In this document: positions 11,071-30,316 of the stretch, piece after piece
Layout of the letters: each line of letters begins with the position of its first letter
Position numbering within the stretch: position 1 is the stretch's first letter
Assembly: GCF_000350525.1 (NCBI RefSeq)
Contig: NZ_AOCN01000026.1
Span: 196,770 to 260,769, forward strand
Direction of reading: 5' to 3'
Length of the DNA: 64,000 nucleotides
Source: Leucobacter salsicius M1-8
GTDB taxonomy: Bacteria; Actinomycetota; Actinomycetes; Actinomycetales; Microbacteriaceae
The notes under the pieces: generated by a model
Told to the model about the DNA's origin: nothing
The model's input: only the letters and a program-made list of their open reading frames with translations
Database searches by the model: none
Translations under genes and position numbers: made by a program

Positions 11071-11919
11071 TTATTCCTCGGCAATCTCGTCGTACGCGTT
11101 TGCCCGCAGCGCCTGCGCGAGAAGCTGCACGTACCCGTGGTCGGCATGCCGAAAGATCTCATTGATGTCGCCACGCCCGATGAGCTGGCCCTGCTGGAGC
11201 ACGATGACTTCTTGCACGAGTGCTTCGAGCATGCCGATGTCGTGGCTAATGAGCAGCATCGACGCATTGGTACGTTCGCGATACCACTTGAGCAGGTTGA
11301 CGATCTTGGGGCGATTGTTTGCATCGACGCCGAGAGTGGGCTCGTCGGCAACGAGTAGCGCAGGGTCGAGCATCAGAGCACGAATGACGGCGACACGCTG
11401 CCGCTGCCCCTTCGAGAGCTCGTAGGGGTACTCCTGCAGTTTGGCGAGCGGCATGGCCACGATGTCCATCATCTCGGCCACTCGTTCGCCGACCGCGTCG
11501 CGATCGAAGTCTTTCGCCCGTTCAACGATCGGTTCCATTAGGAGGTCGCCCACGTTGAGCTCGGGCGTCAGCGTTGCGCCGGCCTCCTGCGATAGAAACC
11601 CGGTGTAGGCCGTGAGCCGGGCGCGATTGCGTCGTCCCAAGCGCTTCATCGGCATATCCATTACGCTCGCCGATCCACCCACCAGCTTGATTCGGGCGGA
11701 CTTTTCACCGGCATCGTCACCGCGCGCGGCAAGGAAGCGCGCCAACGTCGACTTGCCTGAACCACTCTCGCCGAGCAGAGCGACGACTTCACCGCGCCGC
11801 ACCTCGAAGCTCAACCCCTCGATGGCCTGGAACGCCCGACCCCCAGCGTGCGCGGGATACGCGAGCGACAGGTCAGACACGCTGACGCAGGGGTCCGCTT
11901 CAGGTATCGGGTGTGCCAT
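11071..11919 (-). CDS. Orphan OppF/DppF-like ABC transporter ATPase
   Basis: A 282-residue ABC ATPase. Walker A GESGSGKST is near residue 51, the Q-loop is in GFLSQEAGATLTP, the signature is LSKGQRQRVAV (a variant of LSGGQ with Lys in second position), and Walker B is LLVADEPT. The arrangement is that of one nucleotide-binding subunit of a dipeptide/nickel (Opp/Dpp) importer. No permease, partner ATPase or binding protein gene is in the window, so it may serve a transporter encoded elsewhere. AAGGAG precedes the ATG. It follows dnaG by 36 bases with a possible -10 (TAGGGT) in the gap. Confidence 0.85.
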   Translation of the reverse strand: MAHPIPEADPCVSVSDLSLAYPAHAGGRAFQAIEGLSFEVRRGEVVALLGESGSGKSTLARFLAARGDDAGEKSARIKLVGGSASVMDMPMKRLGRRNRARLTAYTGFLSQEAGATLTPELNVGDLLMEPIVERAKDFDRDAVGERVAEMMDIVAMPLAKLQEYPYELSKGQRQRVAVIRALMLDPALLVADEPTLGVDANNRPKIVNLLKWYRERTNASMLLISHDIGMLEALVQEVIVLQQGQLIGRGDINEIFRHADHGYVQLLAQALRANAYDEIAEE

Positions 11920-11955
11920 CTAAAACTCCTTGATCGGGGAAAGTACCCTAGTAGG

Positions 11956-13911
11956 CTACTCCGCGCGCAGCCCTCGGCGGGCTGCCTCGAGCGCAACCAG
12001 CTGCTCCTGAATGCGCCGGGAGCCGGGGTCGGATGGATCCGGAATCCGCTGCAACCGCGCGCGCAGTTCGCGCCCGAGTGACAGCAGATCGCGGTCCAGA
12101 AGCGAAATTACGACATCGCGGGCATAAATTGCGACCTGGTCGGCACGCCGCTCTGGGATCGGCGCGATCGACAACTCACGGATCAGACCGTGATGAGTCT
12201 CGGGCGCGCCGCTGAGCACGGATTCAAGCGTGCAGGCTCCAGTCGATGCGAGCGCCGCTCCGATCGCGTCGCGCACGACGGCCAGATCCGGATCAAACAT
12301 CTGTGCCGTGGAAGCCTGCAGCAGGAGGTCACTGCCGACGTCGTCGGGGTGCTGCAGCATCGCCATGAGGGCGTCACGCTCCAGCCAGGTCGTCGGCTGC
12401 TGACGCAGCGTCGACATGGCAATGCGCCGGGCCGGGGCCGCCTCTGCGCCGAACTGGCCCTGATAGCTTCCTTGCCCCTGCTGGCTGTGCTGGCCCTGCT
12501 GGTTCTGCTGCGCGAACTGCGGCTGCTGCCCAAACTGCCCACCAGATGGCGCGTCAGGGCGTCGTTGCTGCTGCTGGCGCCCGCTGGGTCGCGATGCACC
12601 CTCGGCGCGCCGGATCGCCTGTCCCACCTCGGCAAGCTCAAGTCCCAGCATGCGCGCGAGCTCGCGGGTGTACCCGGGACGCAGCGATGGGTCGCGGATC
12701 TCGGCCACGATGGGAGCCGACTCCCGGAGCGCGAGTGCGCGACCCTCCACGCTGTTGAGATCGAAGCGTGACACGGCCTGCCGCAGCGCAAACTCGAACA
12801 ACGGCACCTTCTGGGTGAAGAGATCACGGACCGCCTCGTCGCCGCGCTGCTGTCGCAGGTCGCTCGGGTCGAAACCCTCCGGTGGCACTGCGACGTATGT
12901 CTGGGCGGTAAAGCGCTTCTCCTCGGCGAACGCACGCAGCGCCGCCTTCTGGCCGGCCTCATCCGGGTCGAAGGTGAAGATCACCTCGCCCGATGTGTCG
13001 TCGCCCATAATGCGCCGCAACACCGAAATGTGCTCCTTGCCGAATGCGGTGCCACAGGTGGCGACCGCCGAGTCAATTCCTGCAAGGTGGCACGCCATCA
13101 CGTCGGTGTACCCCTCAACCACGACCGCGCGTTTACCGCGCGAGATCGCTTTCTTCGCGAGATCGAGGCCGTAGAGCACCTGGGACTTGTGGTACACCGG
13201 CGTCTCGGGCGTGTTGAGGTACTTGGGGCCTTGGTCGTCTTCGTAGAGCTTGCGCGCACCAAAGCCAAGCACCTGCCCGCTCGTGTCTCGAATCGGCCAG
13301 ACGATGCGGCCCCGAAACCGGTCGTAGGCGCCGCGACGACCTTCCGAGGCCAGGCCCGACTGGATCAACTCGGGGGCGGTGTATCCCTGCTGCGACAGGG
13401 CGCTGGACATGCCATCCCAGCCCCGGGGTGCATATCCCACTCCAAATGATTCACAGGCGGCGGCGTCAAACCCGCGCTGGGCGAGAAATTCGCGCGCGGT
13501 CTGCGCTTCGTCGCTCGCGAGCTGCGTGACGAAATAGGCCGCGGCTGCCTGATTCGCAGCCAGCAAGCGTGCGCGGTTGGGTCCGTCGTCGCGGCGCGTC
13601 GTGCCCTCTTCATAGGTCAGCACGTAGTGGATGCGCGCGGCGAGCCGCTCGACCGCCTCTGAAAACGTGAGGTGGTCGGTGCGCTGCACGAACGTGATCG
13701 CGTCGCCGGATTCGCCGCAGCCGAAGCAGTGATAGTAGCCCGCTGCTGGCCGCACGTGGAAGCTCGGGCTGCGCTCGTCGTGGAACGGGCAGAGCCCCTT
13801 CATCGAGTCAACGCCCGCGTTCTTCAACGTGACGTGATCGCCCACCAGATCAGCAAGGTTGACGCGGCGCTTCACCTCTTCTATGTCGCTCGCGCGAATC
13901 CTCCCCGCCAT
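11956..13911 (-). CDS. dnaG: DNA primase
   Basis: A 651-residue primase that makes RNA primers at the replication fork. The zinc-ribbon has Cys41, His44, Cys62 and Cys65. The catalytic core and Toprim domain occupy about 130-370, with VVVEGYTDVMA and the acidic TFDPDEAGQ motif visible. Between the core and the C-terminal helicase-binding domain (about 500-650) lies a linker of roughly 45 residues that is extremely rich in Gln and Gly. The helicase-interaction domain appears intact. It is the last core gene of the recO-uppS-dus-dgt-dnaG group. A TAGACT box lies eight bases before the ATG. Confidence 0.97.
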   Translation of the reverse strand: MAGRIRASDIEEVKRRVNLADLVGDHVTLKNAGVDSMKGLCPFHDERSPSFHVRPAAGYYHCFGCGESGDAITFVQRTDHLTFSEAVERLAARIHYVLTYEEGTTRRDDGPNRARLLAANQAAAAYFVTQLASDEAQTAREFLAQRGFDAAACESFGVGYAPRGWDGMSSALSQQGYTAPELIQSGLASEGRRGAYDRFRGRIVWPIRDTSGQVLGFGARKLYEDDQGPKYLNTPETPVYHKSQVLYGLDLAKKAISRGKRAVVVEGYTDVMACHLAGIDSAVATCGTAFGKEHISVLRRIMGDDTSGEVIFTFDPDEAGQKAALRAFAEEKRFTAQTYVAVPPEGFDPSDLRQQRGDEAVRDLFTQKVPLFEFALRQAVSRFDLNSVEGRALALRESAPIVAEIRDPSLRPGYTRELARMLGLELAEVGQAIRRAEGASRPSGRQQQQRRPDAPSGGQFGQQPQFAQQNQQGQHSQQGQGSYQGQFGAEAAPARRIAMSTLRQQPTTWLERDALMAMLQHPDDVGSDLLLQASTAQMFDPDLAVVRDAIGAALASTGACTLESVLSGAPETHHGLIRELSIAPIPERRADQVAIYARDVVISLLDRDLLSLGRELRARLQRIPDPSDPGSRRIQEQLVALEAARRGLRAE

Positions 13912-14004
13912 AGCTCAAGAGTCTACTCAGTCGCGGGTGTGAACGGACTGGCGGGGCAGCGCGGCGCGGCAACCAGGTTAAACCAGCCGGCGCAGTGGCG
14001 CCGC

Positions 14005-14051
14005 TACCTCTGGTCGGAAATCGCTTCGCGATTTCTTTTAGACCAGAGGTA
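14005..14051. repeat. Bulged hairpin capped by GCGAAGC, overlapping the dgt stop
   Basis: An 11-bp outer stem (14005-14015 with 14041-14051) encloses a 6-base bulge on one side and a 2-base bulge on the other, then a 7-bp inner stem (14018-14024 with 14028-14034) with a 3-base loop that reads GAA on the minus strand. The dgt stop codon lies inside the structure. No T run follows on the minus strand, so it is not a standard terminator. Its architecture matches the hairpins beside the two tRNA-Val genes. Confidence 0.8.
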
Positions 14052-28111: not shown

Positions 28112-28350
28112 ACTTGCGACGGTGACCCTCAGGGACCGCCAGGTTGGCAATTCTCGCGGCATGAGCGAACGACATATGCAGCGGGGCGCGGAATGGTTCC
28201 TCACGTTCAAAGAAATCCCACTCAGTCTCTACGACGCAGGACTAGAGGCGGCAGAAGGACTCTGGCTACGCATTGGATGGGCCAGACGGAGCTAAACGCG
28301 CCCCACACCATCCACTCTTTGTGTCCTAAGTTTGCCAAGCACTTGCCAAG
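28112..28350. other. Gene-free stretch with a hairpin-module remnant
   Basis: I see no convincing gene here. The 17 bases at 28143-28159 are identical to one arm of the hairpin at 28465-28481 beside tRNA-Val(GAC). The rest looks like decayed sequence. Confidence 0.5.
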
Positions 28351-28361
28351 CAAAACAAAAA

Positions 28362-28394
28362 AGCCCCGGATTCCATTTTCAGGAATCCAGGGCT
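28362..28394 (-). terminator. Terminator of the Gly-Cys-Val tRNA cluster
   Basis: A 13-bp stem with one wobble pair (28362-28374 with 28382-28394), followed on the minus strand by a run of six T. It lies after the duplicated tRNA 3' end. Confidence 0.9.
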
Positions 28395-28404
28395 GATCTG
28401 GCAT

Positions 28405-28436
28405 TTCTCAAGTGCGCGATACTGGGATCGAACCAG
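28405..28436 (-). repeat. Duplicate copy of the tRNA-Val(GAC) 3' end
   Basis: These 32 bases are identical to 28528-28559, which contain the T-arm end, acceptor end and the first bases after tRNA-Val(GAC). The two copies are in direct orientation, 123 bases apart. The copy has no anticodon arm, so it is not a tRNA gene. Confidence 0.95.
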
Positions 28437-28480
28437 CGCGAGAATTTCAGAGCCGACGCGAAGCGTTGGCAATTCTCGCG
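28437..28480. repeat. Bulged hairpin capped by GCGAAGC (copy A)
   Basis: The outer arms 28437-28446 and 28471-28480 pair perfectly. After a 5-base bulge, the inner arms 28452-28459 and 28463-28470 pair with one G-T, closing on a GAA loop. It is about 80% identical to copy B at 30244-30286 and points away from the tRNA in the same way. Confidence 0.9.
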
Positions 28481-28501
28481 GGTCACTGGAGATCCAACAC
28501 G

Positions 28502-28529
28502 AAAAGCCCCGACCGAAGTCGAGGCTTTT
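28502..28529 (-). terminator. Terminator directly after tRNA-Val(GAC)
   Basis: A 12-bp stem (28502-28513 with 28518-28529) with one wobble, loop TTCG on the minus strand, ending in T residues. Confidence 0.8.
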
Positions 28530-28535
28530 CTCAAG

Positions 28536-28607
28536 TGCGCGATACTGGGATCGAACCAGTGACCCCTTCCGTGTCAGGGAAGTGCGCTACCGCTGCGCCA
28601 ATCGCGC
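28536..28607 (-). tRNA. tRNA-Val(GAC)
   Basis: The minus strand gives acceptor GCGCGAT/ATCGCGC, anticodon loop CTGACAC (GAC) and T-arm ACTGG-TTCGATC-CCAGT. The discriminator is A. CCA is not encoded. Its 3' end is duplicated downstream. Confidence 0.97.
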
Positions 28608-28637
28608 CTATATATTTCAGGCTATTCAGTTGTAGAG

Positions 28638-30121: not shown

Positions 30122-30196
30122 GGGCGTTTAGCGCAGCGGTAGCGCGCTTCCTTCACACGGAAGAGGTCACTGGTTCGATCCCAGTATCGCCCACCA
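30122..30196 (+). tRNA. tRNA-Val(CAC)
   Basis: Anticodon loop TTCACAC gives CAC. The T-arm is ACTGG-TTCGATC-CCAGT and CCA is encoded (30194-30196). The acceptor GGGCGTT/ATCGCCC has a T-T mismatch at the sixth pair. Its 3' end is duplicated downstream at 30287-30316. Confidence 0.95.
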
Positions 30197-30198
30197 CC

Positions 30199-30222
30199 AA
30201 GCCCCGACCACGGTCGGGGCTT
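30199..30222 (+). terminator. Terminator directly after tRNA-Val(CAC)
   Basis: An 11-bp stem (30199-30209 with 30212-30222), followed by TTCTT. Confidence 0.8.
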
Positions 30223-30243
30223 CTTCCATCCCACCAGTGACCT

Positions 30244-30286
30244 CGCGAGAATCACCAACGCTTCGCGTCGGCCCCAAATTCTTGCG
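30244..30286. repeat. Bulged hairpin capped by GCGAAGC (copy B)
   Basis: The outer arms 30244-30252 and 30278-30286 pair (9 bp, one G-T). A 6-base and a 2-base bulge follow. The inner arms 30255-30261 and 30265-30271 close on a 3-base loop, GAA on the minus strand. Sequence, loop and bulge positions match copy A. Confidence 0.9.
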
Positions 30287-30316
30287 CTGGTTCGATCCCA
30301 GTAGCGCCCACCACCA
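30287..30316 (+). repeat. Duplicate copy of the tRNA-Val(CAC) 3' end
   Basis: Matches 30170-30199 in 29 of 30 bases, in direct orientation, 117 bases downstream. It carries the T-arm end and acceptor end of this tRNA, not of the other tRNA-Val, and no anticodon arm. Confidence 0.95.

Follow-up and report, generated by a model that had tools for sequence, protein, structure and literature searches.

The window, by which we mean the whole 64,000-nt stretch of Leucobacter salsicius M1-8 DNA analysed here, carries on its minus strand a tRNA-Val(GAC) gene (28535..28607; ARAGORN; Rfam RF00005, 66.9 bits) whose 3' part has been copied. Read along the minus strand, the tRNA is followed by a terminator-like hairpin recognised from the sequence (28501..28530), which forms the first turn of an array; by CCAGTGACC (28481..28489), a sequence match to the tRNA's own variable loop and T-stem 5' strand as a 9-nt inverted copy at an offset of 5; by a 44-nt bulged hairpin (28437..28480), the second turn, detected by a geometric scan and by models R1 and R2, of which R2 was trained mainly on tRNA-linked copies; and by CTGGTTCGATCCCAGTATCGCGCACTTGAGAAA (28404..28436; locus L003), which repeats the tRNA 3' end and the bases just behind it exactly over 33 nt. 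This order had been described in an initial annotation of the sequence, and it is real. The bulged hairpin consists of a 10-bp outer stem, an 8-bp inner stem with one A.C mismatch, a 3-nt loop and a 5-nt bulge on the 3' side, and folding of the tRNA together with the module gave z = -6.1. Two other minus-strand stretches lie nearby: at 28142-28158, about 280 nt beyond the hairpin, CGCGAGAATTGCCAAC repeats 16 nt of the hairpin's 5' arm exactly, without the 3' arm, and is likely a remnant; at 28340-28403, behind the second tail copy, a terminator is followed by a TTGGCAAGTGCTTGGCAAAC-like stretch. Because the latter resembles, by eye, the end of elements integrated at tRNA-Val in three other loci (L011, L020 and L024), a mobile element may once have used the window's tail copy as its site.

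The same order recurs on the plus strand behind tRNA-Val(CAC) (30122..30196; ARAGORN), here with the CAC tail, which confirms a second statement of the initial annotation: a terminator-like hairpin (30199..30222, from the sequence) precedes CCAGTGACCT (30234..30243), where the variable loop and T-stem of this tRNA recur in inverted form (sequence match; an 11-nt match at offset 6 in locus L002) and which is followed by a bulged hairpin found by hairpin-model search (30244..30286; G000:C26:227013-227055) and a direct copy, by sequence match, of the tRNA 3' end with one mismatch in 30 nt (30287..30316). The GAC and CAC hairpins, within one genome, are clearly related, and their flanks derive from the local tRNA at each locus. 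The T-arm of tRNA-Val(CAC) is of the GAC type, which is absent from most of the relatives' CAC genes examined; among these genes the module occurs only together with a GAC-type T-arm (in the window and in [Zimmermannella]), and at least three CAC genes of the GAC type are without it (L030, L125 and L135). A displaced original tail at this tRNA was considered and rejected, as the current tail is also found on a relative's CAC gene. The acceptor stem of the gene contains a T.T mismatch (GGGCGTT/ATCGCCC), and the AGCGCCC of the downstream tail copy would pair better.

A geometric scan for bulged hairpins, run on both strands of the window and on one strand only of four Markov-shuffled controls, returned two in the window and none in the four shuffles, the CAC copy lying below its threshold. 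Fifty tRNAs of the genome were each examined over 400 nt (over 241 nt in one case) for a copied tail or for an inverted piece of 12 nt: the module is present at two of them, tRNA-Val(GAC) and tRNA-Val(CAC), and the remaining direct repeats look like adjacent tRNA genes (Met, Glu). A chance origin was rejected on the basis of the scan against shuffles and of this genome-wide tRNA comparison. The hairpin model identified four hairpins in the whole genome, namely those at GAC and CAC, a third where dgt ends (14005-14051) and a fourth on a different contig.

By pattern search and inspection, the tRNA-Val module is present in 17 of 54 Leucobacter genomes and absent from the other 37; the strict pattern likewise counted 17, from which G027 was removed (its two matches look like chance) and to which G023 was added (missed by the pattern, recognised by eye). 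Across the family, the covariance model matched 24 of 398 genomes, and inspection by eye placed the module in 19 of the 398, under six genus codes, a count that takes in reduced or degenerate copies (G186, G347 and G394), an array that lies some 1 kb away from its tRNA (G283), and one accepted on spacing that matches L110 (G444). Four covariance-model matches in which neither tRNA nor module was visible (G096, G104, G109 and G183) and one hairpin without a tRNA (G290) were set aside. Named genera outside Leucobacter that carry the module include Herbiconiux, Gulosibacter and [Zimmermannella]. The pattern matched 35 loci in genome contigs; the surroundings of 21 of these and of three viral loci were inspected, as were the 90 nt upstream of T-arm matches, and among the inspected loci outside Leucobacter the module was found only at L094, L110, L117 and L119, the others resembling tRNA genes or chance. 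Spread in viral contigs was rejected: three such contigs match the pattern, and all resemble tRNA genes by eye. Across the order, a hairpin-model search gave no hit in 395 other genomes, some of them from the same family; its filters were strict, at the cost of weak matches.

Individual arrays hold one to five tandem units (five in L170). The terminator-like hairpin between tRNA and inverted piece is absent, by eye, from at least five of them (L019, L110, L146, L148 and L150), and in a Leucobacter array, L008, the inverted piece extends, again by eye, back through the tail to the terminator; L007 contains an assembly gap. The initial annotation had regarded restriction to the two tRNA-Val genes with vertical inheritance as the mark of an old duplication. 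Presence is instead patchy: on a quick tree of 30 dgt genes from 30 genomes, with tRNA-Val and dgt states assigned by eye, the tRNA-Val module undergoes eight changes.

Copies beside different tRNA genes, which the initial annotation took as a sign of a mobile or targeted element, do exist. In several species, the succession of tRNA, terminator, inverted T-arm piece, hairpin and tail copy is also present at tRNA-Ala(GGC) and tRNA-Ala(CGC), where an array can hold as many as three hairpin units and where different hairpins may share one array (L262 and L263), and less complete copies occur at tRNA-Glu(CTC), where the layout is accompanied by an extra small hairpin, and at tRNA-Leu(CAG) and tRNA-Arg(ACG), as partial or rearranged forms. 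The Val, Ala and Glu cases carry the tail of their own local tRNA, as had been anticipated. At tRNA-Ala, the inverted piece tracks the local T-loop across three alleles (AATCG, ATTCG and ACTCG) in 11 of 12 copies. A separate tRNA-Glu 3' fragment with two hairpins in place of its T-loop lies 5 kb from the tRNA-Glu array (L277; G009:C1:1680825).

The two copied parts stand in a near-constant relation to each other. In 49 of 56 tRNA-linked copies, a count made without a shuffled control, the inverted piece starts 5-6 nt further upstream in the tRNA than the tail copy does; the 56 are the matches within 900 nt behind a same-strand tRNA, out of 113 matches at 78 chosen loci, after seven reverse-strand readings were dropped. 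Where there is a tail copy, it begins with CTGG in Val, except that the start is shifted two bases downstream in the degenerate L147 and one base downstream in the final copy of L170, and with CCCC in Ala; it measures at least 13 nt in 47 of the 56. The inverted match is at least 6 nt long in 43, and in the other 13 the offset rests on 3-5 nt. The seven exceptions to the offset are three tail-less Val copies, one degenerate Val copy, one copy at Ala (L161) and those at Glu and Leu. An old tandem tRNA duplication with decay of the extra copy, one of the two origins initially envisaged, would yield direct tail copies and tandem units. However, it leaves the inverted piece and the structured hairpin, which recur across genera, unexplained; no 5' tRNA half is present in any examined copy directly behind a tRNA, a like layout occurs at protein genes, and we regard this origin as highly improbable.

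That the tail copy begins inside the T-arm is also what would be seen if the units were shrunken integrative elements, cis-mobilisable remnants that tyrosine integrases had stacked at the tRNA T-loop. In L171 and L172 (G028 and G019), elements whose ORF looks by eye like an integrase do occupy this T-loop and separate the array from tRNA-Val, and the stretch behind the window's second tail, with its by-eye likeness to the L011, L020 and L024 element ends, fits as well. Yet none of the elements examined ends in the bulged hairpin, hairpins of this family are also found where protein genes end, and the inverted piece is left without an explanation, making this a quite improbable account. Integron cassette arrays and CIMEs consist of tandem units that share an end at a fixed attachment position; the present units resemble tyrosine-recombinase cassettes or a CIME in that direct repeats flank a unit at the tRNA T-arm, but the short tandem units examined leave no room for a gene. 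In L172 (G019, Leucobacter luti), about 2.4 kb with an ATPase-like ORF (11629-12948, by eye) sits, cargo-like, between two hairpin-tail units (11500-13940). Longer copies of the tRNA-Val 3' part, reaching back to the anticodon arm, lie tens of kb from the matching tRNA-Val at L173 (3240) and L176 (13323), and these may mark a second kind of site at which elements integrate in those tRNAs.

The third hairpin of the family in the window, found by the geometric scan, the hairpin model and comparison with relatives' dgt ends, lies at the 3' end of dgt (14005..14051, plus strand; dgt sense is minus). In dgt sense, the last codons are followed by the stop codon in the bulge, then by a small hairpin and by the last codons inverted. 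Behind it stands a second small hairpin, CGGCGCAGTGGCGCCG, recognised from the sequence (13988..14003; L180), and after this, on the minus strand, CTGGTTTAA, a partial direct copy of the dgt end that is too short to score. A search for the dgt end in 40 Leucobacter genomes gave matches in 34, of which 30, including this genome, were examined: nine have the hairpin by eye (that of G076 decayed), and the rest end plainly, for example in ...CCGCTGGTCTAG. Well-preserved cases run from a small hairpin through the gene's own last codons, inverted, to a second small hairpin, an arrangement that is repeated in G023, G016 and G007; the outer stem is thus local sequence, being made, by eye, of the gene's own end and its inverted copy. 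The dgt hairpin undergoes six changes on the 30-gene tree, at least four of them forced by well-supported branches, and the label is weakly clustered (37 of 500 label shuffles need as few changes).

At E up to 0.001, the hairpin model is positive in 27 of 40 Leucobacter genomes, with 0 to 18 copies per genome, and outer stems vary by locus among the dispersed hairpins; G008, G009 and G036 belong to the hairpin-rich genomes. Since the same hairpins stand at protein-gene ends, recognition of tRNA T-arms, suggested in the initial annotation, does not hold as a rule. Read in the sense of a protein gene, the hairpin often coincides with the very end of the frame: 13 of 44 dispersed copies have the stop codon in the bulge (offset 10-11), several of them from the same locus (L164, L247); on the opposite strand a frame also ends nearby in 13 of the 44, but at no offset more than twice. 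A second perfect hairpin with a stem of at least 5 bp accompanies 34 of 46 dispersed hairpins (a few, such as L166 and L272, without a YAC loop), and a direct copy of at least 6 nt follows the second hairpin in 10 of 46, at an offset of 4-6 nt in 8 of these 10; neither count had a shuffled control, and some of the ten come from one array. In G008 (L253, L256, L258 and other loci), many hairpins cap a larger intergenic palindrome (GATCCTGCG ... CGCAGGATGACGG and variants).

The paired positions of the bulged hairpin covary. In 58 model matches (54 distinct rows; alignment A3, which includes a few doubtful or reverse-strand matches), 93.5% of cells pair and 16 of 18 pairs vary on both sides; two-sided changes amount to 201 cells, compared with 51 after shuffling (rows that share an array or a genus are not independent), and the signal is lost when the partner is slid by 1-3 columns. 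Wobble pairs are rare, with 3 G-T cells among 354 standard cells (alignment A1), so that nearly all pairing is Watson-Crick, as expected if one arm was copied from the other; such templated copying would mimic the covariation of a structured RNA. Mismatches on the top strand, which at tRNAs is the tRNA strand, are A.C rather than G.T in 45 against 13 cases, counted as sequences and not as events (31 against 8 in 54 tRNA-linked hairpins, 14 against 5 in 46 elsewhere). If one strand folds, this excess indicates the complementary one, which tolerates G.U; the bias could come in part from mutation bias or shared ancestry. The GCGAAGC cap to which the initial annotation gave a key role is a plus-strand reading only, the minus-strand loop being GCTTCGC, and it is not conserved: across 100 distinct hairpins the loop triplet varies (GAT in 28, TTC in 13, and others). 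What is conserved is a GC-NNN-GC motif at the end of the inner stem, and most of the second hairpins found have a YAC loop in gene sense.

Covariation of this extent, the mismatch bias with its implied G.U tolerance of the complementary strand, and the stop-codon peak on a single strand are features that a functional RNA would show, acting in 3'-end stability, termination or tRNA/mRNA 3'-end control and spread and kept by selection, with the tails as by-products. We nevertheless consider this unlikely, as at tRNA-Val and tRNA-Ala the mismatch bias favours the antisense strand of the tRNA, G-U pairs are scarce and the tRNA-Val module is missing from 37 of 54 Leucobacter genomes. In the window, Rfam gives nothing but tRNA at gathering scores, and locally only sub-threshold hits, by which a known RNA family was rejected. 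T.G wobble in dgt sense, seen by eye in G005 and G031, suggests, together with two-sided changes in that sense, that some hairpins may subsequently have been kept as RNA.

The near-constant offset at different sites, and the motifs common to the small hairpins, might instead be the work of an enzyme. A mobile single-stranded hairpin element, with an enzyme that cuts gene ends at a fixed 5-6 nt stagger and repair that copies the target on both sides, would also accommodate the patchy distribution (including the forced changes at dgt), the 0 to 18 copies per genome and the differing hairpins within one array. Against it, the dgt outer stem is local and not carried in, and the transposase family searched, Y1 (PF01797; Y1_Tnp/RAYT), is absent from all 54 Leucobacter genomes, in a search that was positive in 5 of 14 control genomes; the same result counts against the single-strand DNA mobile element of the initial annotation, and an element of the kind outlined here seems to us rather doubtful. 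Framed as an undescribed hairpin-inserting activity of Leucobacter and some relatives, which would capture small bulged hairpins at tRNA and protein-gene 3' ends with a fixed 5-6 nt stagger and have the target strand copied on both sides, each move adding one local layer and leaving the duplicated gene end functional, the idea is a tentative possibility. The near-constant offset and the shared small-hairpin motifs suit an enzyme at least as well as they suit strand switching. Taken as a whole, the initial interpretation is partly supported.

The tRNA and protein-gene cases share a common scheme, X, hairpin, X', hairpin, X, in which X is the gene 3' end and X' an inverted local copy, with tandem repetition possible. 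At tRNA-Val(GAC) in the window, X is the tRNA tail, the turns are the terminator and the 44-nt bulged hairpin, and X' is CCAGTGACC. This layout points to an undescribed way of making hairpin repeats from the adjoining gene end. Our preferred reading, to which we assign a probability of roughly one half, is that the modules are fold-back arrays produced by replicative strand switching at hairpins, followed by tandem expansion. DNA synthesis would fold back at a hairpin, copy a few bases of the opposite strand and return, by strand or template switching; direct copies of the tail would then recombine with one another and so alter copy number; a hairpin that arose at one site could be carried elsewhere and there acquire a further outer layer, copied from the sequence at its destination; and gene-end hairpins, once made, may be retained as RNA structures of the protein gene's sense strand.

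Several observations favour fold-back. The copied parts depend on the local gene, the offset is near-constant, gene ends are plain in hairpin-free relatives and occurrence is patchy. The inverted piece of L008, reaching the terminator, is the full fold-back that would be expected; the dgt outer stems are built from each species' own gene end, which is plain in species without them; and the dispersed copies with offsets of 4-6 in 8 of 10, the one to five tandem units and the nearly all Watson-Crick stems are in line with it. Template switching has been reported to create and maintain perfect hairpin stems (PMC8794818). Other observations count against fold-back. Ordinary template switching should vary in length, yet the offset is near-constant at several sites, and both small hairpins keep motifs (GC-NNN-GC; YAC loop) that local copying alone does not explain. 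At tRNA-Val and tRNA-Ala the tRNA did not serve as template for the outer stem, so the model needs a carried-in hairpin in addition. The first turn is missing from the five arrays that lack a terminator-like hairpin, 7 of 56 copies break the offset rule (three of them without a tail copy), 13 of 56 inverted matches are only 3-5 nt long, and no more than 10 of the 46 dispersed copies were scored, some of these ten belonging to a single array, with offset counts made without a shuffled control.

Among known systems, REP/BIME sequences (RAYT-associated GTAG families and CGTC families) are described in PMC3733652 as short intergenic palindromes with paired hairpins, clusters and an uneven spread among species; the word 'actinobacteria' occurs 0 times in that text. 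The arrays are likewise short palindromes between genes, with paired hairpins, clusters and uneven spread, but wherever a test was possible the local gene was the source of their outer stem and flanks, which are thus not a fixed sequence, and the Leucobacter arrays have low copy number and duplicated tRNA tails. A conserved stem with a GTAG or CGTC tag was not found, a GTAG-like string occurring, by eye, only inside the second hairpin, and a REP transposase system was rejected on the absence of PF01797. Double-hairpin elements of fungal and sponge mitochondria, according to PMC2800124, are tandem hairpin pairs scattered between close species, for which mobility has been proposed, and those of Allomyces are without flanking duplications. 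The Leucobacter arrays share with them two consecutive hairpins as one repeated unit, but are bacterial and have a local inverted copy between the hairpins, a 5-6 nt offset and duplicated tRNA tails. In template-switch (quasipalindrome) mutations, a single event gives rise to perfect stems and to inverted copies of local sequence (PMC8794818), whereas the Leucobacter layout recurs at several loci, with a near-fixed offset, similar small hairpins and arrays.

The tyrT/rtT repeats of Escherichia coli stand in tandem behind a tRNA gene, as 178-bp units each with a 19-nt copy of the tRNA 3' end, and the Leucobacter tandem units likewise each contain a tRNA 3'-end copy; we know of no inverted T-arm piece or bulged hairpin in the tyrT/rtT repeats. 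The rtT family has no match in the window at gathering score, nor in 28350-28620 at E up to 5. A narrow search of the open-licence literature found no paper on tRNA repeats with palindromes or actinobacteria, nor on REP together with RAYT and actinobacteria.

Related species have occupied or empty sites at one and the same gene, which allows the creation of hairpin repeats to be followed stepwise. Strong covariation in such repeats may reflect arm-to-arm copying and not compensatory selection. If the hairpins are made by an enzyme, they would represent a new way of moving DNA hairpins; if they are not, they would record with unusual regularity how strands switch where genes end.
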